64,000 nucleotides of DNA, taken from Cliona cf. orientalis (lineage: Eukaryota; Porifera; Demospongiae; Clionaida; Clionaidae). Under the pieces are notes generated by a model, which saw only the letters and a list, made by a program, of their open reading frames with translations, did no database searches and was not told where the DNA came from. Positions 10,697 through 56,300 of this stretch are shown one piece after another. The stretch is taken from positions 5,105,501-5,169,500 of the forward strand of contig OZ005699.1 of NCBI GenBank assembly GCA_963930775.1, written 5' to 3'. The position numbers and the translations under genes are program-made. The first letter of the stretch is position 1, and every line of letters begins with the position of its first letter.

Positions 10697-13600
10697 CTGC
10701 ACAACAACCATATTGGCTATCTGAATGACTTGGTCTTTCTCAGCTTCAGGAAATATGCCCTTACGTCCTGCACACTCAATATCAAAGCTTAGAACTCTGA
10801 GAGGTGCCAGTTTCTGCCACTCTCCTTCTGGAGGATAACTTAACACATCCTCCCAAGACACATCCAATTCAATTTGGGCCTTGGACATCAGTACACTTTT
10901 TCCTCGGTCAAATGATGAAAATCCCATGCTTGGACTTACACAGGTTGACTGTCGATGTAGATTTCGAAGTTTATACGACCCTATTTATTATTATAATAAT
11001 ACATTGTTATAAGGACAATTCCGATACTTAAAACCTGCATAATATTATTACGAGCATGGAAATACACTATTATTACGAGCATGGAAATACACCAACCTAA
11101 GAAGCTAATAATATATTATAGCAATTCAGTATTTTTTACATTACTTGTCCTCGGTGCATCTTTACACACTCTTGCGTACTTCAAGGTGACCAGTTTTTAC
11201 AGTGAACCACAAAGTCCACCAAGGTATATCTTTTATGCACCAATTTCACAAACACACCCCAGTAGCTGCATATCGTATTTACTCAAATACTAGCCGCAGC
11301 TACTATTAATTTCAGCCTTGCTAGAGTGTGGCTAATAATCGAGGGTGGCTTTTATTAATTTTGGAGCAACACCTCTTGGTGACATTAACACGATAGACTG
11401 ACTTTCGAATATTCAAGATAGATGACGGATAAATAAGCAGCAGAACCAAGCCAAGGACGTTTTCTGCATGATTTTGCCTCAAACTGATGATCGCCCATGG
11501 CTTGTGATAGTGGCCACACCCACTTAATTATATTTGCACATGCATGCGGCTCTTACTTCTTCGCAGAGCTCCATGTGCAGCTACTACTTGAGGGCGGCTA
11601 CTAATCGGGGTGCGGCTTCTATTCCAATCAATATAGTAGTTCTAATGGTGCATATTATAGTAAAAGGTCGTCATGCAACACAGTGCATACACAGTCTACA
11701 ACACACGTCGATGCCGGCGCCTCAATCACAGAGATGGAGTCTAAGACCAACTCTCGGCCTCAATAGTGACAAGTTTCAATGCTTCAATCAAAGGAGATGA
11801 ACTTGATAGCACAGTACAGCTTTCAAACTTCAGATCGGTCATGCCGCTTGCACGATGCTATATATAGCACAAGGCTAGCTTTATTTATCTATGGGATTAC
11901 GTCAACGAAAACACATAAAGTTCGGCCAGCAGTACTTGTCAGCATTGACTTTTAATCTATTCACTGGATACATGCATCAAATACTCTACATAATTACCAA
12001 TTTTCAAATCTCAGAAAGGCTCCATGGAGGCCCTATATTTTCGGGTATTTACCTCATAGATTACATCATAACTACCGCATGATGGCAGAAAGTAAATTGC
12101 TACTGGGGATGTAATGAAAAACTTAGACTACATCCCTCGTCCCTCATGAAAAGTATTACACCGCGCTACTGTACGCCGCCATAAATTCAAACTAGGACAC
12201 ATCAACAAACTACGCATGTTCCGTATACGCGTATATTGAGGCATGCGGCTTGAGCCGGTTGACCCAGACGTGACCTCCAGCTGCCATGTGCTAGACAGAA
12301 TAGGGAAATCCTCCCAAGTGCGAGCTCACCAGAAGAAAGCGAATTGAGAGAATCGCCATATCTTTCATCGATAGTCTATGATGTCTTCTACGCTAGGTTT
12401 GAATTCTGGGACCCAACAACCTTTCATGCGCGCTAAATATGTTGAAGCAGTTTCACAGCAATTTCATCATAATTACCTCATTGATTGGCCGAATCGTTTT
12501 GTTGATTGGGACTCGGGATGTAATGAGAAACTTAAGACTACATCCTGAGTCCCTCATGAAAAGTATTGCACTGCACTACTGTACGCCGCCATAATTCAAA
12601 CTAGGACACATAGACAAACTGCGCATGCTCCATATACGCGTATATTGGGGCGCGCGGCTTGAGCCAGTTGACCTGGACGTGACCTCCACTGCCATATGCT
12701 CGACTGAATAGGCAAATCCCCCCAGAGTGCGAGCTCACCAAAGAAAGCGAACTGAGAGAATCGCCATATATCATCGATGGTCCACGATCTCTTCTACGCT
12801 AGGTTCGAATTCTGGGTCCCAACACCCTGTCATGCAAGCTAAACATTTTGAAGCAGTCTTCACCCCAATTTCATCATTACTTTCGTATTAATTACCTTAT
12901 CGGTCGGCCGAATTCTTTTTTGTGGATTGGGACTCGGGACGTAATGAAAAATTTCCCTCGTCCCTCATGAAAGGTATTACACCGTGCTACTGTATGCCAC
13001 CATAATTCAAACTAAGACACGGCGACAAACTGCACATGCTCTGTATATGCATATGTTGGGGCGTGCAGCTTGAGCCGGCTGACCCGGACGTGACCTCCAC
13101 CTGCCATGTGCTTGACTGAATAGGGAAATCTCCCTCCCCCCGAATGCGAACTCGCCAAAGAAATCAAACTGAGAAAATCACCATATCATGTCATCGATGG
13201 TCCACGATGTCTTCTACGCTAGGTTCGAATTGGTCCCAACAACCTTTCATGTGCGCTAACATTTTGAAACAGTTTCATAGCAATTTCATCATCATTTCAT
13301 CATAATACCTCATCGGTCGGCCAAATCGTTTTGTTGATTGGGACTCGGGATGTCATAAAAACTTATCAGTTGGCCAATTGTTTCTTGTTGACTGGGACTC
13401 GGGATGTAATGAAAAACTTGCTACATACCTCGTCCCTCATGAAAAGTATTACACCGTGTTACTGTATGCTCCGTATTACATAATATGGGGATGCATGGCT
13501 TGAGTCCGTTGACCTGAACATGACCTTTACCTGCCATGTGCTAGACTGAAAAGGGAAATCCCACAGAGTACGAGCTCGCCAAAGAAAGTGAACTGAGAAA

Positions 13601-15814
13601 ATCACCATAGATCATCCTTAATCTCTTCTACACTAAGTTCGAATTCTGGGTCCCAACAACCTTTCATGCAAGCAAAATTCACAGCAATTTCATCATCACT
13701 TCATAGGTTTCATCATCAATTACTTCATCATAGGTTGGCCAAATTTATTTTGCTGATTGGGACTCAGGACGTAATTACTTACATGAGCATATATATATAT
13801 ATTATAGCAACCACTGCACTATAATAACGGAGAAAAAATTTTATTCCACTGAATAATACATTGGTAACTTTGCCTGCAAAAATGCTAGAATTAACCAATA
13901 AAACAGAAAAGGGGGACATTTCACTATAAAAAGGATCTGTGTACGAGGACATGAGTAAGAGGCATACTTCCGTTGAAAAATGATTACCATATGGCCGGAA
14001 TTTTTTGAGGGATCCAATTTTCGTGGAAGGTCCATCGCTTTCGCTATCTAATTTTCACAGATGGACATTCCCGAGTTGCTCCACACACAATATCCATTAG
14101 GCTATATGCCTCTAAATGCACGTGCACCGCGACTAAAATCTCGTTAGAACCGGCCAAAAAAGTTGTGAAAAACCAGGAAGTGATCGATGATCGTACCTGA
14201 ACTTAGGGGAGATCAAGAAATGGCACAAGAGTAGCATATGATCGAGGCTAGAGACATAACTTTTGTGTAGAAGCTCAACAACAATGAACTGGCATAAAGT
14301 AAACCAGTTGTTCAGATTGATCAGTCCAACAGCGATATGCACCACGATAGCCACGCCCCCTGTTATTGCTCGTGTCGACGTCACAAGAACATGTGTTTAA
14401 CATTTCGCGGATTTACTTTTCATGGATGACCCAAAACTGGATCCTTCGAAAAGTTCCTATGAAGGTTGATGTTCTGATAGTTGACATCATACAAAATTGT
14501 TCTTGTAAGGATTGATCATGGGGAAGTTGATCACATAAAAATTGATCTCGGGTGCACACACTGGTATGCATATACAGTACTGTTTAGGTGCAAATGTGCG
14601 AAGGAATTCAAATGACATTCTGCGCCCTTTCAGGAAGTTCTGGCTAGCCAGGTTCCTGTCATGCCCATTGGTGGCAATCGAATTTATTACACTCTATGGA
14701 ATCATATGGAATCCACTGTTTTAGGAGTGCATGGTCAAAGAGCTTCCTGCAGCCTCGAGTTAGCATGCTCAGAAAAGGGGATGAGTATTAAGCCAAGACT
14801 TATAATACACTTGTTTCCCGTCCCCTGATTTGTCATCAATCCATGCGGGCGGGTGGATACTTTTTATTATTGTATTAATAATATCATTATCCTGCTGCTA
14901 TTAAGTAGCTGACTTACAATTCAGTAACTTCAAACATTTATCTTGCATGCAAAGTACATGTATCTACAGATTCTGACAACACCCCCAAACTGCCTTGAAT
15001 TAAGGGGTGTGGCCAATGAAACTGCCACTGAGGATGCAGGTGCCAAAATAGCACGCAAGCAGGGGACGGGAAACAATTCTATTAATAAACAGCCTGAATG
15101 CTGAATGAACAAACCTGGACAACACTTGATCCAATTACAGCCCACTATTCCAGTATCTACCATGAATCTTACTTCAAAATCGACATTACTTTCAAATGAT
15201 GGACAGCTCATAGAACCATATTGTGGCATACTGATGTTATTCAATACCCTTCGCGTTGATGGAACAAGCTTTGGAGTTGCCACAGTAATTTTCAGGAATG
15301 GAAACAATCTGTTGAAGTGAAACCCAAGCATTGAGCATTTCCTACATAGTTCAACAGCATAAACCGCTTGAGATATCCCATCTTTGTTGGATCGCATATC
15401 ACTGAGAACAGCATCATTGAGAAGGTGACGAAGGCGATCACAGTCTACATTCGCAAACGATTCAGAAGGAGCTGGCACATAAAAATATGGCAGGAATCCA
15501 TGAATATGCGCACACACACTGTTACCTTCCATTGTGACGCCATACATTCTCACTATCGGAACGGGTCCATTCCGTGCACCAGGCATTCCTTCAACAGGAT
15601 CACCTATGTAGTGATCAATGTCAATTTGCTGGAACGTTATTTCGTCCTGAGCAGATGAAAGCTGAGGAGGATCAGGCCTACACCAACGTGAAGGACACGT
15701 TGCAGAACCTGAACGTTCCAAAGAATGAAAGGATGCCAGTTCTTCTTCAAAACTGAAGGAATCGTCGATATCATCGGTCCGAGCCCTTTTTCTAGATGGT
15801 CCCACACCGGCCAT
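10697..15814 (-). CDS. POLD1: DNA polymerase delta catalytic subunit, N-terminal exons only
   Basis: Two coding exons are clear: 15,115-15,814 and 10,697-10,902. They join in phase 1 (CCPG to KSVL) and leave an open phase-0 donor (GTGCAG|GTAACC). The start [15 protein letters not shown] gives a basic nuclear-localisation-like stretch, as in the family. [39 protein letters not shown] and [15 protein letters not shown] follow the family order. Exonuclease motif I is present as [10 protein letters not shown], with acidic residues Asp274 and Glu276. The family makes the leading/lagging-strand replicative polymerase with 3'-5' proofreading. Only about 302 residues of the usual roughly 1,100 are here. 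The exonuclease II/III and polymerase motifs were not found between 10,696 and 1. Either the gene continues past position 1 through a giant intron, or it is a broken copy. The reading frame present has no stops. Confidence 0.85.
11257..12118 (+). mobile_element. Family B element with an insertion, in POLD1 intron 1
   Basis: The left end AGTAGCTGCATA at about 11,260 and the right end TTGCTACTGGGGATGTAAT at about 12,098-12,116 match family B. The body words GCAAGGCTAGCTTTATTTAT and CTCCATGGAGGCCCTATA are present. About 360 bases at 11,280-11,635 are not found in other B copies. They begin and end with CTACTAT/CTACTAATCGGGGTG-like words, so a further small element appears inserted. The element abuts the family A array on its right. 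Confidence 0.6.
12119..13780 (+). repeat. Tandem array of about four family A units in POLD1 intron 1
   Basis: Units run about 12,128-12,519, 12,536-12,943, 12,956-13,351 and 13,420-13,777, with a short stub at 13,360-13,415. Each unit begins near ACATCCC..GTCCCTCATGAAAAG and ends near GATTGGGACTCGGGATGTAAT, so its tips are inverted ACATCCC words. Shared internal words are CATGTGCTAGACTGAATAGG, ACGCTAGGTTCGAATTCTGG and AATTTCATCAT. Successive units abut through a short AATGAAAAACTT linker. The same unit occurs as a pair at 41.31-42.13 kb (opposite orientation) and as two to three copies at 54.55-55.5 kb. Confidence 0.8.
13985..15114. other. Remainder of POLD1 intron 1
   Basis: This stretch lies between the family A array and POLD1 exon 1. 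It starts with an eroded family D end near 13,985 (ACCATATGGCCGGAATTTTT). A possible partner, ATTTCGCGGATTTACTTTTC, lies near 14,402. The rest is unremarkable AT-rich intron. The word TTGTTTCCCGTCCCCTG at about 14,810 recurs inverted at about 15,060-15,077. Confidence 0.4.
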
Positions 15815-40570: not shown

Positions 40571-43500
40571 ATGAATCCTGAGAGGCGAAGATCATCACTG
40601 GTGCGTGAATTGAGCCGAGCTCAGGGCAAGATAGCTACACTTGAGGAGTTCATTCGGGACAGGGAGAGGCAATTCCACTCTGCGGTGGTCCGCATGGAGC
40701 GCAGGGACTCTTTTCAGGGCACTGGTATTGGGACGAGAGTGAGAAGAGCAGGATTAAGCCACGACATGCTGCGACTGCGCAGCATGAGCAGTGAAGAACA
40801 CGAAGATATCTCCGGTATGAAAATCAAAATTTCTGCATGTCTCCAACGGTTCAACTTAAACGTTAACAGTGTCCATTTTACAAGAATATTAATATTATAT
40901 TAAGGATAAAATTATGTTTATTTATTTCAGATGGGGTATTTGGCAACCCACTGGCTGAATTTGCCAATCTCACAGTCTCCAGAATTATGTGTAATTCTGA
41001 TGAGTCAGTACCCTTTATGCTAAGACGTCTTGTTTCAAGGCAATATCATATTAGTCCTACTGGTGTCATCATTGGATCCAGCCCTGAAGCTGATATTTGT
41101 CTTCCTCAAGAGACAGGGCTGTTGGAGAACCATGTTAAGATCAAAGGGACCTCAGGTAGGACTTCATGTACATGTATAGTGGCTTGAGAGGCAGCTACCA
41201 TAAATTATTAATATACTGAAGGACTTGACTATGTCCCAAGTAGCTGCATACCTTAGGATGATACTTTTAGTGGGTACAAAATTTGCAAAAATACCAGAAT
41301 TAATTACATCCCAAGTCCCAATCAACAACAAACAATTCGGCCAACCTATAATGAAGTCATGATGGAACCTATGATGAAATTACTGTGAAGGCTGTTTCAA
41401 AATATTTAGCTCATATGAAGGGTTGTTGAGACCCAGAATTCGAACCTGGCGTAGAATAGATCATGGACTATCGATGATATATGGCAATTCTCGCAGTTCG
41501 CTTTCTTTGGCGAGGGGGGATTTTCCTATTCAGTCTAGCACATGGCGCATGGCAAGATGGAGGTCATGCGCGACCGGGTCAACCGGCTCAGGCTGCATGC
41601 CCCAATATTATGCAATACGGAGCATGCGCAGTTTGTTGATGTGTCCGAGGTTGACAATGGCGGTGTACGGTAGCGCGGTGTACTACTTTTCATGAGGGAC
41701 AAGGGATGTAGTAAGTTTTTCATTACATCCTGAAGTCCCAATCAACAAAAACAATTCGGCCGACCGATGAGGTAATTATGATGAAATTATGACGAAAATG
41801 CAGTTAAGACTGTTTCAAAATGTTTAGCACACATGAAAGCTTGTTGGGGCCCAGAATTCGAACCTAGCATAGAAGAGATCATGGACTATCGATGAGATAT
41901 GGCGATTCTCTCAGTTTGCTTTCTTTGGTGAGCTCGCACTCGGGGGGATTTCCCTATTCAGTCTAGCACATGGCAGGTAGAGGTCACGTCTGGGTCAACC
42001 GGCTCAAGCCGCATGCCCTAATATACGCGTATACGGAGCATACGCAGTTTGTCGATGTGTCTTAGTTTGAATTATGGCGGCATACAGTAGCGGGGTGTAA
42101 TATTTTTCATGAGGGACAAGGGATGTAGTCTACGTCTTTCATTAATTATATCCCCAGTAGCAATTGTTATGAGGTAATTATGGTGTAATTATTAGGTAAT
42201 CTTTGAGGTATGAGAAAATTCAGGGCCTCCATGGAGCCGTTCCAAGACTGTAGACCTAGTATCTAACGCATGTATCGAGCAATACATTATAAGCCGTGTG
42301 CTACTTTCTCTGACAAGTATGGCTCATCGAACTTCTTGGCTTACGTAATCCCTATAGCTAGCGTGCGCTATACATAGTACGTGGTCCATGACCTGACCAA
42401 TCTTGCTTTTGAAAGCTGTCCTGCACTGTCAGGATCTTTTCTGTGTTTGAAGCATTGAGATTTGTCGCTTTCGAGGTCGAGAGTCAGTCTCAGACTCCAT
42501 CTCCGTGATTGGGGCATCGAATATGCACACTATGTTGATGATCCTTTACTACATACACCATTATTATCAGGCCCGTAGGCAGGGGGGGTGCAGGGGGGTG
42601 CACATGCACCCCCCTTTTTTTCAGCCTAATAATTGCATGTCACTTCACAGAAGTTCTTAATTGCATGAGCAATAGACTGAGGCTGCATGCTATCCTCTCT
42701 ATCAAACCACACTTAGAGTAGCTAATTAACATCACACCTCAATCAATAAGCAGTTGTGACCAATACATGCATAATTATTATAGTAGTCACTAAACCCATA
42801 CACGTGCACCCCCCTTTTAAAAAGTCTGGCTACGGGCCTGATTATCATGCAGCTACTGGGGATATGGTCAAGTGTTCATGTTAGTACCCAGGTAATTGTA
42901 ATGGTGCATTTGGTAAAGGTTGTCCATTACGGTGTGTACACAGTCTATATCGATTCCAGTGCCTAAATTACAGAGATGCTGACTTGACCTTGATAGTCAC
43001 ATATGTTTGATGCTCCAATCACAGACAAATTTGACAGTGCAGTTACTTGTATAGCTTCTGAACTTCAGATCGGCATAATTATATAGTGTGGTATAGCTGC
43101 ATGCGTGATGCGTGCTATATATATAGCGCAAGGCTAGCTTTATTCTATGGGATTACATAAGCCAAGAAAGCATGTTAAGTTCAGCCAGTGGTACTTTTTA
43201 GAGAAAGTAATACGAATACAGCTTGTAAGGTATTCGCTGGATACATGCATCAGATACTCTACATAATAATATTGATTTTCAAGTCCCAGGCTCCATCGAG
43301 GCACTGAATTCTCTCATAATTATCCCATGTGTGCATGTGCAGCAAAAGGTAAGATAATGGGTTATGTCTGTCATCGTTATCGTTGTCGTCAATCATCGTC
43401 CACACAAAAATCGCTAGATCTGGAGGTCTAGTGACTTGTAAGCACAATGAATCAATGGAACTTGGTGAAAAATTGGCTTTAGTATGCTTCAAATCAATGG

Positions 43501-46500
43501 AGATGGCCATGAATGTCACAAATAGTACCGTTTTGTTGACCACCATAGTCATGCCTATCAACAGTAGCTATGTGCTTTCTGCTCATGTGCATAAGCAGCT
43601 GGTAAATGTTGGTCATCAATTGACTCACGCATGCTGCAGCAGTTGTGCAGGAAGCGGATGCAACGCATGGGGTATGTACTCGATACAGCTCTAGTCATCG
43701 CCTAGATTGCACCATAATTACTCCATAACCACGGAAAAGTAAATTGCTACTGGGGATGTAATTATGCGGTAAGAGCTGTGAATGCTCTACAAAACAGTAT
43801 GAGATGGGGGTGCTCAGTCTTCAAAAACAAGAGCCAATAGCCATCTAGCGAGGTCTGGAGGCATGCTCCTCCAGAATTTTTTCACTCTCTGAGGGTGTTG
43901 CCGCTGAAGCCACTTCTGACAGTAGTTTTGAGCATTTTTGTTGTGTGCAAGGCATACGTACTGAAAGTATTCACATCTGGAAGATGAGGGGTTCACCTCC
44001 TAGCATGCATTTCTTGTGCTATCCAAGTGAAAAATAACTCTCAAGAAAGCTACATAATGTACAACGTACAGCACTTTTTATCTGCCTTGAATAAACTATT
44101 AATGGGCATGACAGGAACCTGCAGAACTTCCTGAAAAGCATTTACATCTCATTAAAATTCCTTCACGTATTCACTTTGTTGGGTTTGCTAGTCGGGCCAG
44201 CTAGACTCACTATGTGGCCCTCTCCTATTCATTATGCTGAATCTTACTGTCAAATTAAAATTAACTCAAAATGATAACCTTGAAAAGGGATAAAGGTCTA
44301 GCTGACCAGCTAGACTACTGTGACATTCTTGTGTACTTCATTGAGATTCAAATGTTCATCAGTAGAAAGCATGGTATTATGTGTAGGTAATTCAGAAGAG
44401 AGAGCTTCAAATTATTTTTCACTTTGTGACCTCACAAATGGTGATGGAGTCTTCTACATTTCCAAAAGTGGATCTAACGTGCAGCACTCCATCATCAAGG
44501 AAGAGATATCAACCAGTGGTCACCAACTACCAATACTCTCTCTAAAGCAACCAGATTTACCTGGAGGACTGGACCAATCCCTATCTGCTCACTCTCAACA
44601 TGATCCGAATACTTCATGCCACCTTGACATACCGATCACAAGTGGTGTATCATTTGTAGCCGGTTGTGTAGAGTTCAGTTTGACAGCTCTTCCATTGGAG
44701 GAGCTACTAAGAATTCGAATGTTTTCTGCTGCTTCTAGTGGTAATCTCCCCAAACTGAAGTCAGTGATTAATTCAGTGGGCACATTTCAAGCTGCCAGTA
44801 CAGTATCTCAGTGCAGTCATTCTGAAGCAACACAACCACAGGGAGATATAGACATCAATTCAGAATACTGTAGCCCATCCCATGGTGAGGAGTCTTATTT
44901 TGATAGATATCAAAAGCGTTCCTCTGTTGCTCCCCCATCGTGTATTTCTCCCTCTCATAAATTGCTTTTGCATATTGCTATCGGAAACAGAGATATTGAA
45001 ATGACTGCTTTCTTACTGGAAAAGGGAGCTGATGTGAGTTAAAATAGTTGTTAGTGCATGCAATAGATTACATAATTAGAGCATCTTACGTGACATTGTA
45101 GCTTTCCATAGTGGTTGTGGTGCTATGTACATTCCAAGTATCATCATCTTTTTAGCCTAATAAATGTGCTGGAGAACTGAATCAGAATGCACTTCATTTA
45201 GCTGCACATCACAACCTTAAAGAAATCATGATTGAGTTACTCAAGTATGGAGGGGATGTAGAAATGAAAGATTCTTATCATCACCCTCCTCTGGCACTAA
45301 CTACTGATTATGAAGTCAGGCAAGATGAGCTGGTTCTATTTAGGGTTACATAGAGTAATAGTGATTGTTAAAACACTTAGGAAGCTGCTGTTGGATGTAG
45401 TCATGCTTTGTGCTGCTGCTGAGGCTGGTGATCACGTAGAGGTTGATAGGCTTTTATCCAGCTCTCAAGTCAGCCCAAATGCCTGTGGGCTTAGGCATAA
45501 AAATGCCCTTCATTGGGCAAGTGCCAAAGGTCACACGAATGTTGTACATAGGCTTCTCATGAGCAAAGTGAGTCTTGGTCTTTGCTTATATTCTTGATAA
45601 ACTATAGCTTGCCATGCCTGCTATTATATAGGTCAATGTGAATTCTAAAGGTGGCAACCATCAGCGAACTCCCTTGCATTATGCTAGCATAAATAACCAC
45701 GTTGGTGTAGCCAAGTTACTACTCGATGCTGGAGCTAATGAATTTGCCAGGGATTCAGGCGGGTACACTCCACTCAATCTATCTCTTGGTGGTGAAATGT
45801 GTAAGTTGCTGCACAAGGTAAGTTGTGCATGCACATTGTGTGGTTATATGCAGTGATAAATATTTATCAACGTTTTGGCCTTATCTTAGCAACCACTATC
45901 TCTCTGCTTGGCTGTTCAGAGTGGTGATCTGTGTGAAGTGAAACATGTGCTGTCAATGATAGATAGAGAAAACATGCATGTTGTGGATCAGAGAAATGAA
46001 CAGTCACATGCACCGCTTCACATTGCATGTGCTGCAGGAAACATGCAAGTTCATGACTTATGCTCTATGTTAACACTGCTTCTGCTATATATCATACCAT
46101 CATTCTAAATTGTTTAATTTGTTGCAATAATTGTGTCTGTAGTGGGATTGTGCGTGTGTTGGTATCTCATGGAGCTGATCTCAACCTCCATGGTGGAAGT
46201 GACGGATGGACTCCTCTCTTTTATGCCGCTATGGCAGGTAACTCACCTCTCTGAGGCAATAGTCTAAGGTGGTGTTCCGTTGAGGTGAGGGTCACATGCA
46301 AAATCTGTGGTGGTGTCACATTTAGGATGTTGTTTCTATGAATTTAGCACAATATTATTCTGCTCAAATGTCTAGAGGCAATTAATACATGTATCAACCT
46401 TTCAGCAGTTCGTGCACATTTATAACCTAACTGACTGAAACGTTTCCATATTCATTAAAAGCAATAATTATTATGGCCATAGTTGTATGTTAATTAATTT

Positions 46501-49500
46501 CTTCAGATAGATAGCTATATAGCTAAATAGTAGCTACCTTTTGAGTACCTTTTGATGTTAGCTCATCATATATAGGATATTTACCCCGCACACGCATGCG
46601 CATGCACAGCAAGGGATCAAGTAATTGGTTTTGTCTATTGAGCTCTAGTTATGCATGTTACACTATACTGCATCATAACTGTTACTGGCACAGCTTGTGG
46701 TGTACTGTCAGACAAACATATATTCAGTGTATATTGGTTTATACTGCAGGAAGAGATGACGTAGTGGAATTTCTTCTTTCTGTTGGTGCTTCTGTTGAGG
46801 TAATTATGTGGTTCTGTATGTGCTCATGAATTTTGTGTACATGTAATTATAGTCAGGATGAAGTTGGTCGGTAGTGCGTGAATGGTTGTAGAAGTATAAT
46901 TAATTACACACTTGAGTACAATTTATTAGGCAGTATTCTTACTTGTACGTGTATAGTCAGTAATAGCACGAGCGACAGTGAGTGCTATTTGGCTGTACGA
47001 GTACATGTAAGAGTGCTGTTGCTGCTCTAATTACCCTGCGCACATGCACAAGGGGTAAAGTAATCAGTTGTGTCGTTATCGTTGTCGTCGTCGTGAGCAC
47101 AAAAGTCGCCATATCTCGAGATGTAGGCATTTAAGCGACTCGTAAACACAACGAATTAATCGAATTCAGCGAAAAACTGGCTTCATTGTGTGTCAAATCG
47201 ATGGATACGGTCCACGGGCGTCACAAATAGTGCCTTTTTATTGGCTAAGGTAACCACACCTATCCACTGACAGATCTGAAATCTGCGGCCCTATGGAATT
47301 ATAGCCATGCATGCACACAAAAGCAACTCATAGATTGCGCAATGTGCGTGCAGGGTATGTTATTACCATAATAATGTACCAATTAATAGCTATTGCATAT
47401 TTTCACCAGCAAAAATTTCCAGGGTGATTTCACACAACTGTATACAATTTACCATGCATTTCACATTACCTCTCATGCTCCCGGCCTGGCCTTAATTATT
47501 AACCTTCGGTGCATGCGCCACAGGGTTACGGTAGTCGTTCTGTGTGTCTGTCTGTCTGTCTGTTATCAAGCTAACTGCTACATACCTCATTTGTGACTCC
47601 AAAGTGTGGTGTTATAAGGTTCCTTATGGTTTTCCAAGCATATGAATTGTGTGGATTTCTCCAAAAATGCTTTGTCCGCAAGTTTTGGCATTATTTGCCG
47701 ATTCTAAGCTTCTTGATTTTGCCCGAGCTAGCTAGCGCTAGCATGACTTATACTATAGAAAACTATTATATAGAACGTTGTATGTATGTTGCGCGCTATA
47801 TATGGTATGTACGTGTATTAACCTTCAGCGCATGCACTTTAGGTATGGTTGCAAAAATCATTGACCCTGCGCACCGCCACCATGCCTTCCTTGCTCAGTC
47901 CACTGGCAAACTTTCGACAATCGTGGGATGATAGTGGCTTCGTTTCAACTCTAAGGGTATACCGTATGTATGCTTAGCTGCCAATTACCATGCGCATTCT
48001 TGTGGTACATGTACCTTTCACTCTCTAGTTAGCTAAGCTTGTATGCATTGCAGCGCTTGGACCCAAATAAGTTGCGATAAATTACTAATATTGTACATGC
48101 AATATTGCTCAGTGTACTTTATAGTCTTGTGCCAAGGCTTTGCATCCCCAAGAGTTGGAGGTTAGCGTGAGGGAAGTTGAGTTGATCTTGGCACCACAGT
48201 ATGGAATTTGTGACAACACACCCTATTGTTGTTGCTGTGAGCCATTGAACCTTGAACAACATCAGGATTTCATTTAGGATTTTTGTCAAGGGGGGGGGGG
48301 GGCAAACGTGATAATTCCAGAGTTAAGCGGGGGCAAAGACTATAGTATGTTTTTCCATCTGTGAAGAATAATGTTGTGCTCATTAACTTCATTATGTTAG
48401 GGGGTCTGGGGGTATGCTCCCCCAGGAAAATTTTTTAATGTTTCTATCTCTGAGACTGTTTATGGTGGCGTCTGAGCACTCGGATGGGGAAAGTCCGTCA
48501 GTAATATCCACTGGTTCCCCTCTATTTCAAGTCAAATGTTGTAAGGATGTGGGATGTGTCTCCTACCGCACGTAGCGCGAAGCTTCAGCTAATTTATGGC
48601 TTAAAAATGAGCAAAACTGCCACTTTGGACACTTTCACCGTTTAAATCTTTTACTTGTGCGTGTATTGCATGTATGGATGGTGGCTACTCTCAAGGGGGG
48701 GGGGGGCGAGTGACCCCTCCCGCCCCCCCCCCCCAAATGAAACCCTGAACATTGCTATGCAAGTATAACGTTAGTCTTGTCCCTAGCGCTTATTGTTATA
48801 GTAGCCTCACGATCGCCTTTAACCCTTTCTGCATGCAACACTGAAGCATGTAGCTAGTTCAATGCAACGCGCCGAGGGTTTTATGCTCGAGAGAGCTCTA
48901 GTTATTATGGTTCCCTTCGTTTGAGATTGCATAGTTGCATGTACGTGAGTCATCTAAACTGGCATATTGAGCATTCTGCCTGCTCCAGGTGGTGCTAAGT
49001 GAAGCCACCAAGAATATAAGTTGGAGCACAGATATACCATACATGTATGCATGGACATATTTTTCTGAAGGGTTGCACCACATAGCTAAATTTCACTATG
49101 CGCATAGCCAATAGCAAGCATAATGTACAGTGCCTATGATTATAATGAGACAGCTTAGTATTATGTCTATGTTATAGGAGGTGGATATTTATGGTAAAAC
49201 TGTTCAAGACAGGGTTGAAAAAGCACTGCAAGAAGTAAAGGAACAGCAGTCTCATCTTGAAAAGAGGGGGAGAGCAGGATCAGTGCAGGGACAAGAAATG
49301 TACTTGCATACCCTGGAGCCAGCTAGTATGACCAGACAGGTGATTAGTGTAGTTGTGCTCATTACTCATATTTTGTATTGATATATTTAAATTATTATAC
49401 TCTGGGCCGGCTGGAAAATATTTATGTAGGAAAGTGCTAGTTCTTGTACACACGAGATGGAAAGAGAACATCTTGCTCACCGTTACGAAGCTCTCAAGAT

Positions 49501-52500
49501 GGTCTCCAAACTCCTTATATCTGGTGCAGAGAGGTTGTTTGATGCTTTGGAAACGAGAAACTTGAATGATTTCAAGTATATACTTTTCTGGCATTCATAA
49601 TTATCATGTACAGTAATTATTGGAAATTGTACAGGGAGGTTTTGGCATCCTCTGTTGTAGATGCTAACACACTGGTTGACAAGCACAATCCCACACCTGT
49701 GTTGGTTAGAGTGTGTGAGGAAGGTCTATTTGAATTTGCCAAAGTTTTACTTGAAAAGAATGCAACAGTGAGTTTCATTCCTTCCTGATGAAGGTGTTTG
49801 CAAGCTGTGTTAGTAATATTTGGTAAAATGCATGTCTTATAGGCCACCTCCTTAGACTTGTGTGCTACTATAGTCTTACAGCTATAGTCACTTTGGACTA
49901 CTGTAGATCCCAATTGGAAATTTAAACAAAAGTAGGGAGGGGTGGCTATGGACAACTTAAATTGTATGGTGTAACATGCCAAAGTTTTAGTACTTTTGTT
50001 ACCCTCAGTTCAATAGCATCTTGTTGAAACATTGCAGTAAATTAGAAAATCTTTATTAATGTCACTATTTTTACCAATCAGATGCATTGTGATTACATGC
50101 TTCTTGCAGATCAATGAAACCGGGCCAGTGAACCTGATACCCCTTCTGGTGGCTGCTGCTAGTGGATATTGTGAAATTGTACAACTACTTTTGGACAAAG
50201 GAGCTAAAGTTAATGTTCAGGTAATCATACTGAAAGCTTTTAATCTTTGATTTAGTTGTCCACTTATAGAGCTTGGGTACCTTATCCACTCCACTGCATG
50301 AAGCTGCTGCAGCCAATAGCTTGGATACTGTAGGCTGCCTTTTGGAGGCTGGTGCTGATCTATCTGCTCAGAATTTTGCTGGGGAGGTACCATTTGATTG
50401 TTCTACCTCAGTTGAAGTCAGAACGTAAGAACCATTATTATACATATACATGTAGATTATAGTACTGAGAAGAAATGAAATGGTTTTAATTGTACATGTG
50501 TGGTTTATATTGACTGCACTTTAGCTGTTAGACAAATTGGTATATACATGTAATTGAATTTGTGAATTTGCCATACATGCAGGTATACTTACTATTCGGA
50601 ATTAATAAATATTACTTGCCTACAAGTAGAGAAAATTACTATTAAAATATGTCCTATCTTATTGCAGATAGTCATAATATGAAACGATTACCACATCCCT
50701 AGTAGCTTCATTGTATGGTAATTATGGAGGGTCACTATGTATGTAAGTAGCATACTGAAGTTATGCAATATTATGTATTCATTAAATGCTTTAAAGTGGC
50801 ATAACTTGAAAATGAAAACAAATGACAAACTTTAAAATGTTTATATAGAACCATTTTCCATATTCACCTGTATCTATGCCAAATTTCACGATTCGATATA
50901 CCCTTACTGGGTAAATCTTGCTTGTTTCAGAAAAGTAAATTGCTACTAGGGATGTAAATACCGGTATATACTATCTGTACAGCCTTGTACCCCTGCAGGC
51001 CCTAAGTGTGAGGCTAATATCTGTAGTGCACCATTTATTTGCAGAATGTTAGCATCTGGTGCCAATCGTTTGCTAATGGCAGCCTGTGAGGGAGACAATG
51101 AATCTATTCTTAAGCTTGTTGAAGAGGAGGGAGTTTCCCCATCACATGAATTTTCACATGGAATCACTCCTTTGCATGAAGCGTGTGAAGGTGGACATAT
51201 CAAAGCCACTGAGTTGCTTATTGAACTTGGAGCTGATGTCAATAAACAGGTAACTGGGACACTCTATAGTCAACAGTACACACACATATGCAAGGTGCTA
51301 ATGTATGACCAGGATATAATATGAATCTACATAGATGTTGACACCCTGCCGTGTATCTCACAATACACACTGAGGACGTGCTTTTCATAATATCCATTGC
51401 AGCATGAAAATAATGTGCAAATCTTCAGTAATTTGAACTCGATATTAATTGCACTGTAGAGGCTGCATGGATACTGTGAGCTAGATCATAGATGAAGTGA
51501 AAGTGCCAAATGTGTATAAGGGCATATATAATAATAAGACCTTGATATAATAGGTCTTCTTCCATTTTAAATTCCTGTATGGTGAGAGATTTATTATCAC
51601 TTAAACAATGCATATACCTGGTATATGCATGTTAGATCCCTATGATGTCTTGTCTTCAACTTACAAGTCAGGTATATAATAATGTATCAGTTAGTTACAA
51701 GTATACAATAACGTGTTAGAAGTGTATACACGTACATATGCATAATATTAAATCATGGTCTGTACAATTATATTAATTAAGACTGCAACAATTTCTACTT
51801 TTTATAGACACTTTCATCTCAGATGACACCATTGCATATTGCTAGTCTCCATGACTACGTCGAGCTTGCTAAGGTATTACTAAAGGCTGGTGCAAAATTG
51901 GATGCCAAAGATTCCAATGGAAAGGTAAAGCTTGCTCTGGACTCTCAATTTAGCCTGTCACAACAAATTTGGATCCCCCCTTTTTATTCCCCCCAGTCAA
52001 TATTATATTTCGAAATATTTGTACCCCCCGGCCCTTAAATTTCTGAAATATATGGACCCCCATGCTTGTGATCAACTATTAGTAGAGATTCAGAAGGGTC
52101 AGGGGCTGGGTTCTGGGCATGTAGTCTCCAGGGTTTGTATGGCAGAGTAAGTCGTCTGCATGGGGGTTCAAATACCACGTGATAATCTTCAGCTCGTGCT
52201 CAGCTCTCAATATTGCTGAAAAGTGGGAAGGCGTACAGCATAGCTAGTGGGAATATAGGGAATGGTACAGGATCGATATCCACATAAGTAGTAGTTACAA
52301 ATCATAGTAACTAGTTGCTATGGTTTAACTATTATATATCCTGCTTCCTATTGGTCACAGCACCACCAATCACCACAAGTGACCTTTGTACTTCAATTAA
52401 ATGGGCATGGCCCTAAACATTTTGTGTGTGCAATTGATTATTAATACTTGCCCCCTCAAACAAAACTCCCTCCGCCGCCTATGAATAGTACTAAGCAACT

Positions 52501-53204
52501 ACGGCACCGTATATATACATGATAAACATTTCACCAAGCCCAGCTACCTATGTACTGCAGAAAAGGTTTGCATGTGGAAAAATTAATGTTTGGCCAATGT
52601 GGTAAAGGATGCCATATCTCTATGCAATCCTTAAAACAAGACAAAAAGTTAGCGTGGATAAAAAAATTTCACCAATGAGTGCAGGTGGCGAAATTGGCAA
52701 AAATTTTCTCCTGGCAAAAATTTCTACGCATATTGAATACCAGTATACATGTACATGCAGCTAGAAACTATAATCAACGTTATTATATAACAACTGTGAG
52801 CAGCTATTGCAATTGATAAAGGTGGCTTTGGGCAACTATTAAAATATCCTTGTATTGATAGTGACAAAATTTCTTCTCTTATCCCAATAGGTTCCTTTTG
52901 AGGTAGCATGCACCAACCAGATGCGGACGGTTTTAGTTGAAGCACGTTCAGTGAAGGTTCAACCTATTCCAGTTGACAAAGACACCAACTCTGAGAGGTG
53001 TTGCATGATCTGCATGGTCAATCCCATTAATTCCATTATTCTTCCATGTGGGCATCAGGTGAATATTATAGTGTTTGAGATTCGTGATCATTAAATTTTC
53101 ATTATGATATTCTGCAGGCATTTTGCACCTCCTGCGTATCAAGAATCACAGTTTGTGCTTTAGATAGACAAGCTATACGCGAGGTGATTACTGTATATAA
53201 GTAG
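40571..53204 (+). CDS. FHA-ankyrin-RING protein, probable E3 ubiquitin ligase
   Basis: Eighteen exons: 40,571-40,814; 40,931-41,155; 44,363-45,033; 45,156-45,319; 45,381-45,567; 45,632-45,817; 45,890-46,044; 46,143-46,237; 46,750-46,799; 49,178-49,339; 49,430-49,575; 49,635-49,767; 50,110-50,220; 50,270-50,424; 51,045-51,249; 51,808-51,924; 52,891-53,058; 53,118-53,204. The frame is unbroken for 1,086 residues. An N-terminal coiled-coil-like stretch (about 8-50) is followed by an FHA-like fold (about 107-262: GVIIGSSPEADICLP, NHVKI, LCDLTNGDGVFY, SGVSFVAG). About ten ankyrin repeats run from 270 to 1010, e.g. RTPLHYASINNHVGVAKLLL and TPLHEACEGGHIKATELL. A C-terminal RING follows (1040-1074: CMIC, LPCGHQAFCTSC, CALD). 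RING domains recruit E2 enzymes; FHA and ankyrin domains bind partners. The usual FHA Arg is Ser, and the last RING ligand is Asp1074. Two introns use GC donors. Substrate unknown. Confidence 0.88.
41300..42140 (-). repeat. Pair of family A units in an intron of the FHA-ankyrin-RING gene
   Basis: Units at about 41,308-41,707 and 41,722-42,129 run opposite to the array at 12.1-13.8 kb. Each starts at ACATCC..AGTCCCAATCAAC and ends CATGAGGGACAAGGGATGTAG. They share the GAATTCGAACCTRGC and GTCTAGCACATGGC words. As in the POLD1 intron, a family B element lies immediately beside them, at 42,150. Confidence 0.75.
42150..43760. mobile_element. Two family B elements carrying nested insertions
   Basis: The first B copy (about 42,150-42,870, reversed) starts TATCCCCAGTAGCAATTG and ends CAGCTACTGGGGATATGG. 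It is split by the CAG-ended element at 42,568-42,840. The second copy (about 42,880-43,760, forward) ends TTGCTACTGGGGATGTAAT and is split after CACTGAATT by a family C element (about 43,318-43,696). B elements are thus older than the C and CAG-ended insertions here. All lie in the 3.2-kb intron 2 of the FHA-ankyrin-RING gene. Confidence 0.7.
42568..42840. mobile_element. Miniature DNA transposon with CAGGCCCGTAG ends
   Basis: It begins CAGGCCCGTAGGCAGGGGGG and ends GTCTGGCTACGGGCCTG. The flanks are ATTATTAT at the left and ATTATCAT at the right, identical over the first five bases and matching at seven of eight. GTGCACATGCACCCCCC lies near the left end. It has no coding frame. It cleanly interrupts a family B element, so it moved after that element was in place. 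Confidence 0.75.
46580..46650. mobile_element. Internal-deletion family C element
   Basis: TTACCCCGCACACGCATGCG and CAAGTAATTGGTTTTGTC, which form the left part of family C, pass directly into ATTGAGCTCTAGTT, the right tip. About 320 interior bases are missing. It lies in intron 8 of the FHA-ankyrin-RING gene. Confidence 0.6.
47029..47360. mobile_element. Family C element in an ankyrin-gene intron
   Basis: It starts TTACCCTGCGCACATGCACA and GGGGTAAAGTAATCAG and ends AATGTGCGTGCAGGGTATGT, then stops short of the usual CTCTAGTT tip. It lies in the 2.4-kb intron 9 of the FHA-ankyrin-RING gene, which also holds a family H copy (about 47,510-47,960). Confidence 0.6.
48263..48747. mobile_element. 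Element with CAGGATTTCATTT ends, G/C runs inside
   Basis: The left end CAGGATTTCATTTAGGATT and the right end CAAATGAAACCCTG are inverted partners, with long runs of G and C beside them. AACAT lies immediately outside on both sides, a possible 5-base target duplication. The interior includes TATCCACTGGTTCC and AAACTGCCACTTTGGACAC. These recur in a left-truncated copy at about 55,520-55,872 inside VPS41. Confidence 0.7.
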
Positions 53205-53388: not shown

Positions 53389-56300
53389 ATGTCTGAAGCT
53401 GAAGAGTATTCCGACGAGGAAGAGCGCAGTAGCGGTGAGTCAGGAGAATCCGACGATAGATCTGATACAGAAAATGGCAGTAGTAGCTATGGATCGACTG
53501 AAAGCGGGAGTGGTTCGGAATCGGACGCTGACAGCGAGGAAGAAGAGGAATTTGAGCCTGTGCTCAAGTATAAGCGTTTTGCTAGGGATGTGATCACCTC
53601 TATCAGTCAGGGTCAAGGTGGAGAAGAGAGTAACGTGATCTGCTGTATTGCCGTTCACTCAAAGGTGTGTTGATGCTCTTTAATTGGGGATACGCCGTGC
53701 GTTCCCCTACGAGATATTCACAAAGTAGCTTGCATAATGTAAGTCTTAGGGTATGCTACACAACACGAGACCGGCCAGTTACTGCAAGAAAATTCTTGGA
53801 CTTGGTATTAGCCACCATTATTTAATATAAAGATCATACAGCAAAAGCCGCACCCCTCAGTCTAAGGAATTGTGATGACTTTGCATATACAAGAAGTTGT
53901 TTGTGCAGAATGTACATGTATATGCACATGCCTATAAACAAAGGGGTTTTGCATGTACCTGACCTTGGTTGTCTGCGTGTGTATTCACCGAATCTGATGA
54001 CTAGTATAATAGTATTATGGTGATCAACTATATAGAATTTTGATAGTGATGAAAACTTGACCACATGCCCATGCCCATGGCCCAGTAGCTGCATAATGGT
54101 TCATATGGTAAAAGGTTGTCAGTATAGTGTGTACACACATTGATACTGGCGCCTCAATTGCAGAGATGGAGTCTGAGATAGCCTCGCGCCAGGTTCTTTT
54201 CAATCACAGGAGATGAACTTGACAGCTTCTGAACGTCAGGTTAGTCGCGGCACACAGCGCGCGTGCTATATATGGCACAAGGCTAACTTTATTTATCCAC
54301 GGGATTACGTCAGCCAAGAGAACGCGTGAACTTCGGCCAGTGGTACTTCGCAGAGAAAGTAGCGCTCAGCTTATAATGTATTCGCTGGATACATGCGTCA
54401 GATACTCTACATATATACCGATTTTCAAGTTTCAGAAAGGCTCCACGGAGGCCCTGAATTTTCTGGCAATTACCTCATAGATTACGTCATCATTACCTAA
54501 TAACCGCAGAAAAGTAAATTTCCACTGGACATGTAATGAAAAACTTAGAGACTACGTCCAGAGTCCCTCATGAAGACACCGCCACAAATTCGAACTAGGA
54601 CACATTGACAAACTGCGCATGCTCCGTATACGCGTACACTATTGGGGCGCGCGGCTTGAGCCGGTTGACCTTCACCTGCCATGTGCTCGACTGAATAGGG
54701 AAATCCCCCTGCCCTGAAAGCGAGCTCGCTAGAGAAAGCGAACTGAGAGAACCGCCATAATGATATCATCGGATAGTCCACGATCTCTTCTACGCTAGGT
54801 TCGAATTCTGGGTCCCAACAACCTATCATGCGTGCTAAACATTTTGAAGCAGTCTTCACCCAATTTCATCATAGGTTTCATCATCATTTCATCATAGGTT
54901 TTATCATTATTCATCATAATTACCTCATCGCAAGGCCGAATCGATTTGTTGATTGGGACTCTGGACGTAATGAACAACTTAACTTAGACTACATCCCGAG
55001 TCCCTCACGAAAAGTATTGCACCGCTACTGTACGCCGCCATAATTCGAACTAGGACACATCGACGAACTGCGCATGCTCCGTATACGCGTATATTGGGGC
55101 GCGCGGCTTGAGCCGGTTGACCCGGACGTGACCTCCACCTGCCATGTGCTAGACTGAACAGGGAAATCCCCCCCCCCCCCCCCCCCCCCGAGTGCGAACT
55201 CGCCAAAGAAAGCGACCTGAGAAAATCGCCATATCTTATCAATGGTCCACGATGTCTTCTACGCTAGGTTCGAATTCTGGGTCCCAACAACCTTTCATGC
55301 GCGCTAAACATTTTGAAACAGTTTCACAGCAATTTCATCATCATTAATCATAATTAATCATAATTACCTCATCGGTCGGCCGAATTGTTTTTTTTCTAAT
55401 GAACAACTTGGAGACTACGTCCAGAGTCCCTCATGAATACGCCGCCATAAATTTGAACTAGGACACATCGACAAACTGCGCATGCTCCGTACACGCGTAC
55501 ACTTCGGCGGCTCGATAAGCCCTTGGTAATACTTCAAATATTTTTTCATATGCGAAGAATGACATAGTGCTCAGGAAATTTTTTTTAACATTTCAACCTC
55601 TGAGACCGTTTCTGGTGGCTTCTGAGCACCCGGTTGGGGAGAAGCCTGTCAGTGGTATCCACTGGTTCTATTCCATTTTAATAGTTGAACGTTGGATGTG
55701 GTGTGTGTCTCTTACCGTGCGTAGTGCGAAGCTTCAGAGATTAAAATAAGCAAAACTGCCACTTTGGACACTTTCCCCATTTTTTCCCCATTTTTACATG
55801 TACTTTCAAAGGGGGCAGCCAGCTTTCAAGTACTCGCCCCCCCCCCCCCCCCCCCCCCCAAATGAAACCCTGATAGGTTTTATCAGACCCGTTTAATCTG
55901 TTTACTGCAGTTCATTGCTCTTGGCACCTTTGATGGTACAATCAAACTTTTGGACCACACTGGCACTTTTCTTAAAGACCGAGACTACACAGTTGTAAGT
56001 TAGTGTGCGGTATATTTTGGTATATTTTGGAATGTGATCTAAGAGGGGGTGATGTGCTGTGTGATGTATTTTCTCCTGGAGAGGGGGCCTTGTATCATTA
56101 GTCTAAGACAAGCCCAGTTATAAGACACATGCATATATTATTCGTATGATAGACGCGTACTAACTTGGGCAACGTGAAGTTATCCTTATTAATGACCACA
56201 TTTTACAGCATTCAGCTAAGATAAACTACCTATCAGTGGATGAAGAAGGAGAATTTTTAGCAAGTTGTTCTGACGATGGAAAGGTATAATACATGTACAT

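Follow-up and report, generated by a model that had tools for sequence, protein, structure and literature searches.

A sponge gene predicted to encode an ankyrin-RING E3 ubiquitin ligase with a probably degenerate FHA-like front

One gene of the demosponge Cliona cf. orientalis appears to encode a scaffold-type ankyrin-RING E3 ubiquitin ligase of an animal, whose front is probably a degenerate FHA-like domain; we hold this reading with moderate confidence. The gene was examined in a 64,000-nucleotide stretch of contig OZ005699.1 (assembly GCA_963930775.1, positions 5,105,501 to 5,169,500; hereafter the window, whose own numbering is used unless another locus is named), where it occupies 40571-53204 on the + strand. 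A manual reconstruction that relied on reading frame and splice dinucleotides gives 18 exons with compatible phases in a single frame, the sole stop codon of which is 53202-53204. An 18-exon frame had been proposed in an original prediction made from the sequence alone, and frames, phases and splice dinucleotides all fit it. The encoded chain carries an N-terminal domain, a long array of ankyrin repeats and a C-terminal RING with a C3HC3D pattern of zinc ligands. Together with exons 3 and 17, the predicted frame supports the earlier view that one protein links its N-terminal domain to a RING E3 module by way of a long ankyrin platform.

The length of the protein depends on where exon 3 begins, being 1,075 residues with the acceptor at 44396 and the 1,086 residues originally predicted with the acceptor at 44363. 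Scored with home-made weights, the five candidate acceptors gave -2.0 (44363), -0.0 (44366), -2.0 (44387), -1.5 (44396) and -4.7 (44399), values that do not discriminate among them. Ranked by the same weights against the 3,863 AG dinucleotides scored in the window, all 17 acceptors of the gene lie above the median and 8 are at or above the 95th percentile; among the GT donors, 10 of 15 pass the listing cut and 5 fall below it. Two of the 17 introns, 45320-45380 and 46045-46142, are of the GC-AG type, both with the donor GCAAG, and their joints rebuild ankyrin repeats (TTDYEV-R-KLLLD and CAAGN-I-GIVRVLVSHGADLN). An alternative donor for exon 4, the GT at 45315, was also considered and set aside, since on our reading it is in the wrong phase for the acceptor at 45380, for which the GC donor at 45320 gives the right one.

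The predicted order of N-terminal domain, ankyrin repeats and RING is independent of any single joint between two domains, because exons 3 and 17 each span two domains and introns 2 and 9 fall within domains. One open frame in exon 3 runs from the second half of the N-terminal domain into the first ankyrin repeats, and exon 17 (52891-53058, + strand) likewise joins the last ankyrin cap to the first half of the RING, matched by the Pfam family zf-C3HC4_3, in one uninterrupted frame. Intron 2 interrupts the FHA-like domain, and intron 9 interrupts an ankyrin repeat. That the exons are instead divided over at least two transcripts, for example an FHA-like gene followed by an ankyrin-RING gene, would be favoured by the length of these two introns (3,240 and 2,378 base pairs (bp), respectively) and by the poly(A)-like hexamers within intron 2, one AATAAA (44090) and two ATTAAA (44151 and 44254). 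Further AATAAA motifs occur at 45159 (exon 4), 50604 (intron 14) and 51241 (exon 15), and ATTAAA occurs at ten sites in all between 40450 and 53090. Neither motif is found in intron 9, however, and with the two long introns cutting through domains and two exons joining parts of different domains without a splice, we regard such a division as very improbable.

We searched a Pfam library of 24,736 models, listed to E 10 (HMMER filters remove most matches at E above 0.1), and the scan of the whole protein listed 16 families, with Ank_2 (PF12796) at E 2.2e-71 and Ank (PF00023) at E 3.2e-64 over 10 stretches, both above cut-off. In a separate scan with an ankyrin consensus, 11 repeats scored 33-85, where the highest of 200 shuffles reached 32; four weaker places scored 15-20, within the range of the shuffles, and three of these are read as caps. 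The original prediction had described about ten repeats. On our own reading of the sequence, the array would consist of five modules, M0 to M4, each made of two repeats (M3 has three) flanked by caps, with limits that we likewise set ourselves. M0 (44698-45393, + strand as for all that follow; residues 258-428) runs over exons 3-5 and spans the GC-AG intron 45320-45380. The other modules, placed like M0 by the consensus scan and by module alignment, are M1 (45394-45817; residues 429-548, exons 5-6), M2 (45890-49225; residues 549-664, exons 7-10), which spans the GC-AG intron 46045-46142, M3 (49520-51066; residues 733-891, exons 11-15) and M4 (51067-52929; residues 892-1004, exons 15-17). A linker (49226-49519; residues 665-732, exons 10-11) separates M2 from M3 and contains one consensus match, with a score of 15 that lies within the shuffle range. 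Between exons 4 and 5 and between exons 14 and 15, the joints share one phase and are offset by a single residue in the module alignment, which would fit, without proving, duplication of modules.

Five ankyrin clusters in a row recall the human tankyrases, which have five ankyrin repeat clusters, with peptide binding reported for four (PMC6439159). In a PDB sequence search with residues 255-1075, however, designed repeat proteins, ankyrins and NOMPC outrank tankyrase-1 (E 9.6e-40) among the best 60 of 356 matches, so that only a general resemblance to the tankyrase clusters can be claimed and no kinship is shown. Tankyrases also carry SAM and PARP catalytic domains, and neither is among the 16 Pfam families; a tankyrase relative was accordingly rejected as a candidate, the similarity being that of ankyrin repeats in general. 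Elsewhere in the same genome, long ankyrin open frames cluster at C5:2.27-2.59 megabases (Mb), at C13:7.03-7.20 Mb and on C14 and C7, with up to 3,745 stop-free residues, which suggests a large expansion of ankyrin repeats specific to this lineage.

The C-terminal RING of the original prediction is confirmed by a match of the whole protein to zf-C3HC4_3 at residues 1026-1070 (E 9.8e-10, 38.5 bits against a cut-off of 27). The eight zinc ligand positions are C1029, C1032, C1044, H1046, C1050, C1053, C1060 and D1063, the last four lying in exon 18 (53118-53204, + strand) together with R1064, a tail of sequence IREVITVYK and the stop. The nearest solved relatives of this RING are those of the IAP proteins (cIAP1, cIAP2, XIAP), CGRRF1 and MYLIP, at E values from 2.8e-7 to about 1e-4 among the best 60 of 86 PDB matches (cIAP2 2.8e-7, CGRRF1 1.2e-6, cIAP1 2.8e-6, MYLIP 7.1e-6). 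The part encoded by exon 18 aligns with the RINGs of cIAP2, CGRRF1 and cIAP1, all three of which carry Cys at the eighth ligand in the alignments shown, whereas the sponge protein has Asp. Unlike members of the IAP family, the sponge protein has no BIR match in the Pfam scan of the whole chain. A small cluster of open frames at C9:1.10-1.11 Mb of the same genome (four loci) combines hydrophobic, membrane-like stretches with a C-terminal IAP-like RING.

Asp1063 is the predicted eighth zinc ligand, as in TRAF6-type RINGs. We further take Ile1031 to stand at the usual E2-contact place of RINGs and Arg1064 at the usual linchpin place. In a survey of fly RINGs, the C3HC3D class is defined by Asp at ligand 8, accounts for 5 of 139 RINGs and counts TRAF6 and Roquin among its members; all members are reported to have Pro at the fourth hydrophobic place, and a third zinc site and, in most members, a helix Trp are described as well (PMC3166285). 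Two features of the sponge RING depart from the class as described there: Ala1061 occupies the place of the common Pro, and the segment C1053-C1060 has no Trp. Both weigh against a fully standard E2 surface. The RING could thus be that of a pseudo-ligase, in which the Asp ligand and the missing Pro disable E2 binding and leave the protein only a scaffold or a partner of another RING. Asp at this position is nevertheless known in a class that includes TRAF6, and the residues at the E2-contact and linchpin places look ordinary, so we consider loss of ligase function unlikely and retain the reading of a probable E3.

The uncertain part of the protein is its front. Exon 1 (40571-40814, + strand; residues 1-81) is open from the ATG to the donor gtatga in phase 1 and encodes a charged stretch, helix-like by eye, that had been called coiled-coil-like; it has no Pfam match, and no other coiled-coil test was made. 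The FHA-like region begins in exon 2 (40931-41155, + strand; acceptor ttatttcag, with fitting phase), which contains GS at 130-131 and LLENH at 145-149, and is completed with a long loop by the first part of exon 3 (44396-44697, + strand), placed by frame and phase. When residues 82-256 were scanned as a fragment, FHA (PF00498) was the sole Pfam family listed, at E 0.055 and 14.4 bits. It recurred in two of three other versions of the fragment, at E 0.037 with the loop left out and E 0.074 with the acceptor at 44387 (14.9 and 13.9 bits among these two), and in the hmmsearch alignment the match follows the order of an FHA domain, starting at the glycine turn, taking in the conserved His and ending at the D-L strand.

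The phosphothreonine pocket of FHA domains is formed by the residues of the G-R, S-x-x-H and N-G motifs. In the sponge protein G130, H149 and G174 are retained, and S131, L146 and D173 take the places of the Arg in GR, the Ser in SxxH and the Asn in NG, respectively, as read from an hmmsearch alignment with an eight-sequence FHA profile and from an hhalign alignment with FHA stretches of the sponge's own genome; hhalign with the eight-sequence profile shifts the middle part. A canonical phosphothreonine reader is unlikely because the Arg, Ser and Asn contacts appear replaced. The original prediction had envisaged a phospho-signal-type reader that recruits phosphorylated partners in the manner of RNF8 and CHFR. 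These two proteins offer a precedent for an FHA domain and an E3 module in one chain, but with a match below threshold and S131, L146 and D173 in the place of the contact residues we consider such recruitment improbable and that part of the claim unsupported. A match to FHA in the same genome, C17:388287-388493, likewise has GS in place of the usual GR and is perhaps another degenerate FHA; its protein looks like a relative of afadin or RADIL.

Several results weigh against an FHA assignment of any kind. All versions of the fragment miss the gathering cut-off of 20.7 bits, the fourth, built with the acceptor of the 1,086-residue protein, having no FHA match at all, and FHA is not among the families listed to E 10 for the whole protein. 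The eight-sequence profile fails to detect the candidate, because shuffles outscore it: the loop-trimmed fragment reaches 2.4 bits, and the top eight of 1,002 sequences are all shuffles (3.6-7.6 bits). Comparison of profiles by hhalign gave E 0.058 and a probability of 0.9% against the eight-sequence profile, and E 0.14 and 0.4% against five FHA stretches of the own genome. Nothing was found at E up to 10 in a PDB sequence search with the FHA-like region, nor at E up to 5 in an NCBIfam scan of residues 1-369, and an AlphaFold model of exon 3 alone had a mean predicted local distance difference test score (pLDDT) of 33.7, which is uninformative and was not used as evidence. Neither a paralogue nor an orthologue turned up to show conservation: no second copy of the gene appeared in the capped lists of own-genome candidates scored, which may miss distant copies, and searches for relatives of exon 3 gave 4 pattern matches in viral contigs and 45 in prokaryote genomes, none of which was confirmed.

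These results leave room for an N-terminal domain that is not FHA, in which case the N-terminus of this ankyrin-RING E3 would be left unassigned and the novelty of three combined domains would be gone. The sub-threshold Pfam score and the unmatched acceptor version speak for this, as do the at least eight of 1,000 shuffles that beat the candidate in the small profile, hhalign probabilities below 1% and the lack of a PDB match. Yet FHA is the only family of 24,736 models to be listed for the fragment, it recurs when the fragment is varied, and the match keeps the FHA order of elements; we therefore regard a non-FHA domain as a substantial but lesser possibility. The FHA-like fold first proposed is a weak claim, since the match is below threshold, undetected by small profiles and dependent on the acceptor. 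The domain is, on the alignments, probably a degenerate FHA-like beta-sandwich and not a canonical phosphothreonine reader.

Taken as a scaffold-type ligase, the protein might work as follows. Clusters M0 to M4 would grip partner proteins or short motifs, and the IAP-like C-terminal RING, with its short hydrophobic tail IREVITVYK, would pair with another RING. The RING dimer could then hold an E2-ubiquitin conjugate and ubiquitinate the cargo gripped by the ankyrin clusters, and the N-terminal FHA-like domain may serve in docking or self-association. More specifically, and only tentatively, we propose an undescribed animal ligase in which a degenerate FHA-like module, turned from phospho-reading to docking, is combined with five tandem capped ankyrin clusters, as tankyrase-like grips, and a C-terminal C3HC3D RING.

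The closest known ligases share parts of this layout. MIB1 and MIB2 (mind bomb) likewise place an ankyrin array before a C-terminal RING, and a MIB1 RING3 construct is a weak match of the sponge RING (E 0.042, among the best 60 of 86). The MIB proteins differ in having several RINGs and further N-terminal domains (MIB/HERC2, ZZ and REP), none of which is among the 16 Pfam families of the sponge protein. RNF8 and CHFR share the pairing of FHA and RING; they are not known to carry ankyrin repeats, and the sponge protein has an FHA match below threshold, with phospho-contact residues that are apparently replaced. BARD1 brings a RING and ankyrin repeats together with a domain of the phospho-reader type, but in the order RING-ANK-BRCT rather than FHA-like-ANK-RING, and the sponge protein has no BRCT match in Pfam. 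In the open-access literature we found no described protein with the order FHA, ankyrin and RING, eukaryotic protein databases being outside the search, which agrees within that scope with the original statement that no described animal protein was known to have all three in this order; nor did that literature yield a paper on an FHA domain without phospho-binding. Ankyrin-RING ligases are a known kind, and what would be new is the FHA-like front, which is uncertain.

Within the sponge's own genome, the N-terminal query, with 3 candidates scored, hit nothing at E up to 1 beyond two exons of the gene itself. The RING query gave 17 matches at E up to 0.1 among 23 candidates scored, two on exons of the gene itself and 15 elsewhere, of which the top-scoring one is 41% identical. 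A query of ankyrin repeats and RING together gave at least 97 matches at E up to 1e-6 (150 of 1,548 candidates scored), and outside the gene's own four places the scored matches are at most 46% identical. One of them, at C5:3112259 (26% identity over query positions 10-163), extends past the start of the RING and was examined as a possible ankyrin-RING paralogue; it was rejected, as its open frames continue as ankyrin repeats with no RING by eye. This locus (C5:3108500-3116500, minus strand) has long ankyrin open frames followed by a 428-residue frame, which we take, by eye, to recall the ZU5 part of ankyrins. Wnt matches, ten in all, form three clusters in the genome (C4, C8 and C19). Wnt genes are specific to animals, so these matches mark the genome as that of an animal; 14 control genomes, prokaryotes where named, have none.

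In the window, a repeat with a unit length near 420 bp is dispersed, with a tandem at 41300-42144, in intron 2, and inverted copies at 12014-13775 and 54579-55499, the copies being approximately 73-85% identical (matches longer than 100 bp). On the + strand a neighbouring gene, acidic at its N-terminus, seems to begin at 53389, some 185 bp downstream. Its sequence may be reminiscent of VPS41; in a Pfam scan of three stretches beside the gene, two of them pieces of this neighbour, the lowest E was 0.12.

Should the N-terminal domain turn out to be something other than FHA, the gene would simply add to the known ankyrin-RING ligases. A real and conserved architecture would show how an animal lineage might assemble a multi-partner ubiquitin ligase from modules that are usually separate, and would provide an example of an FHA-like fold in use with no phosphothreonine pocket.

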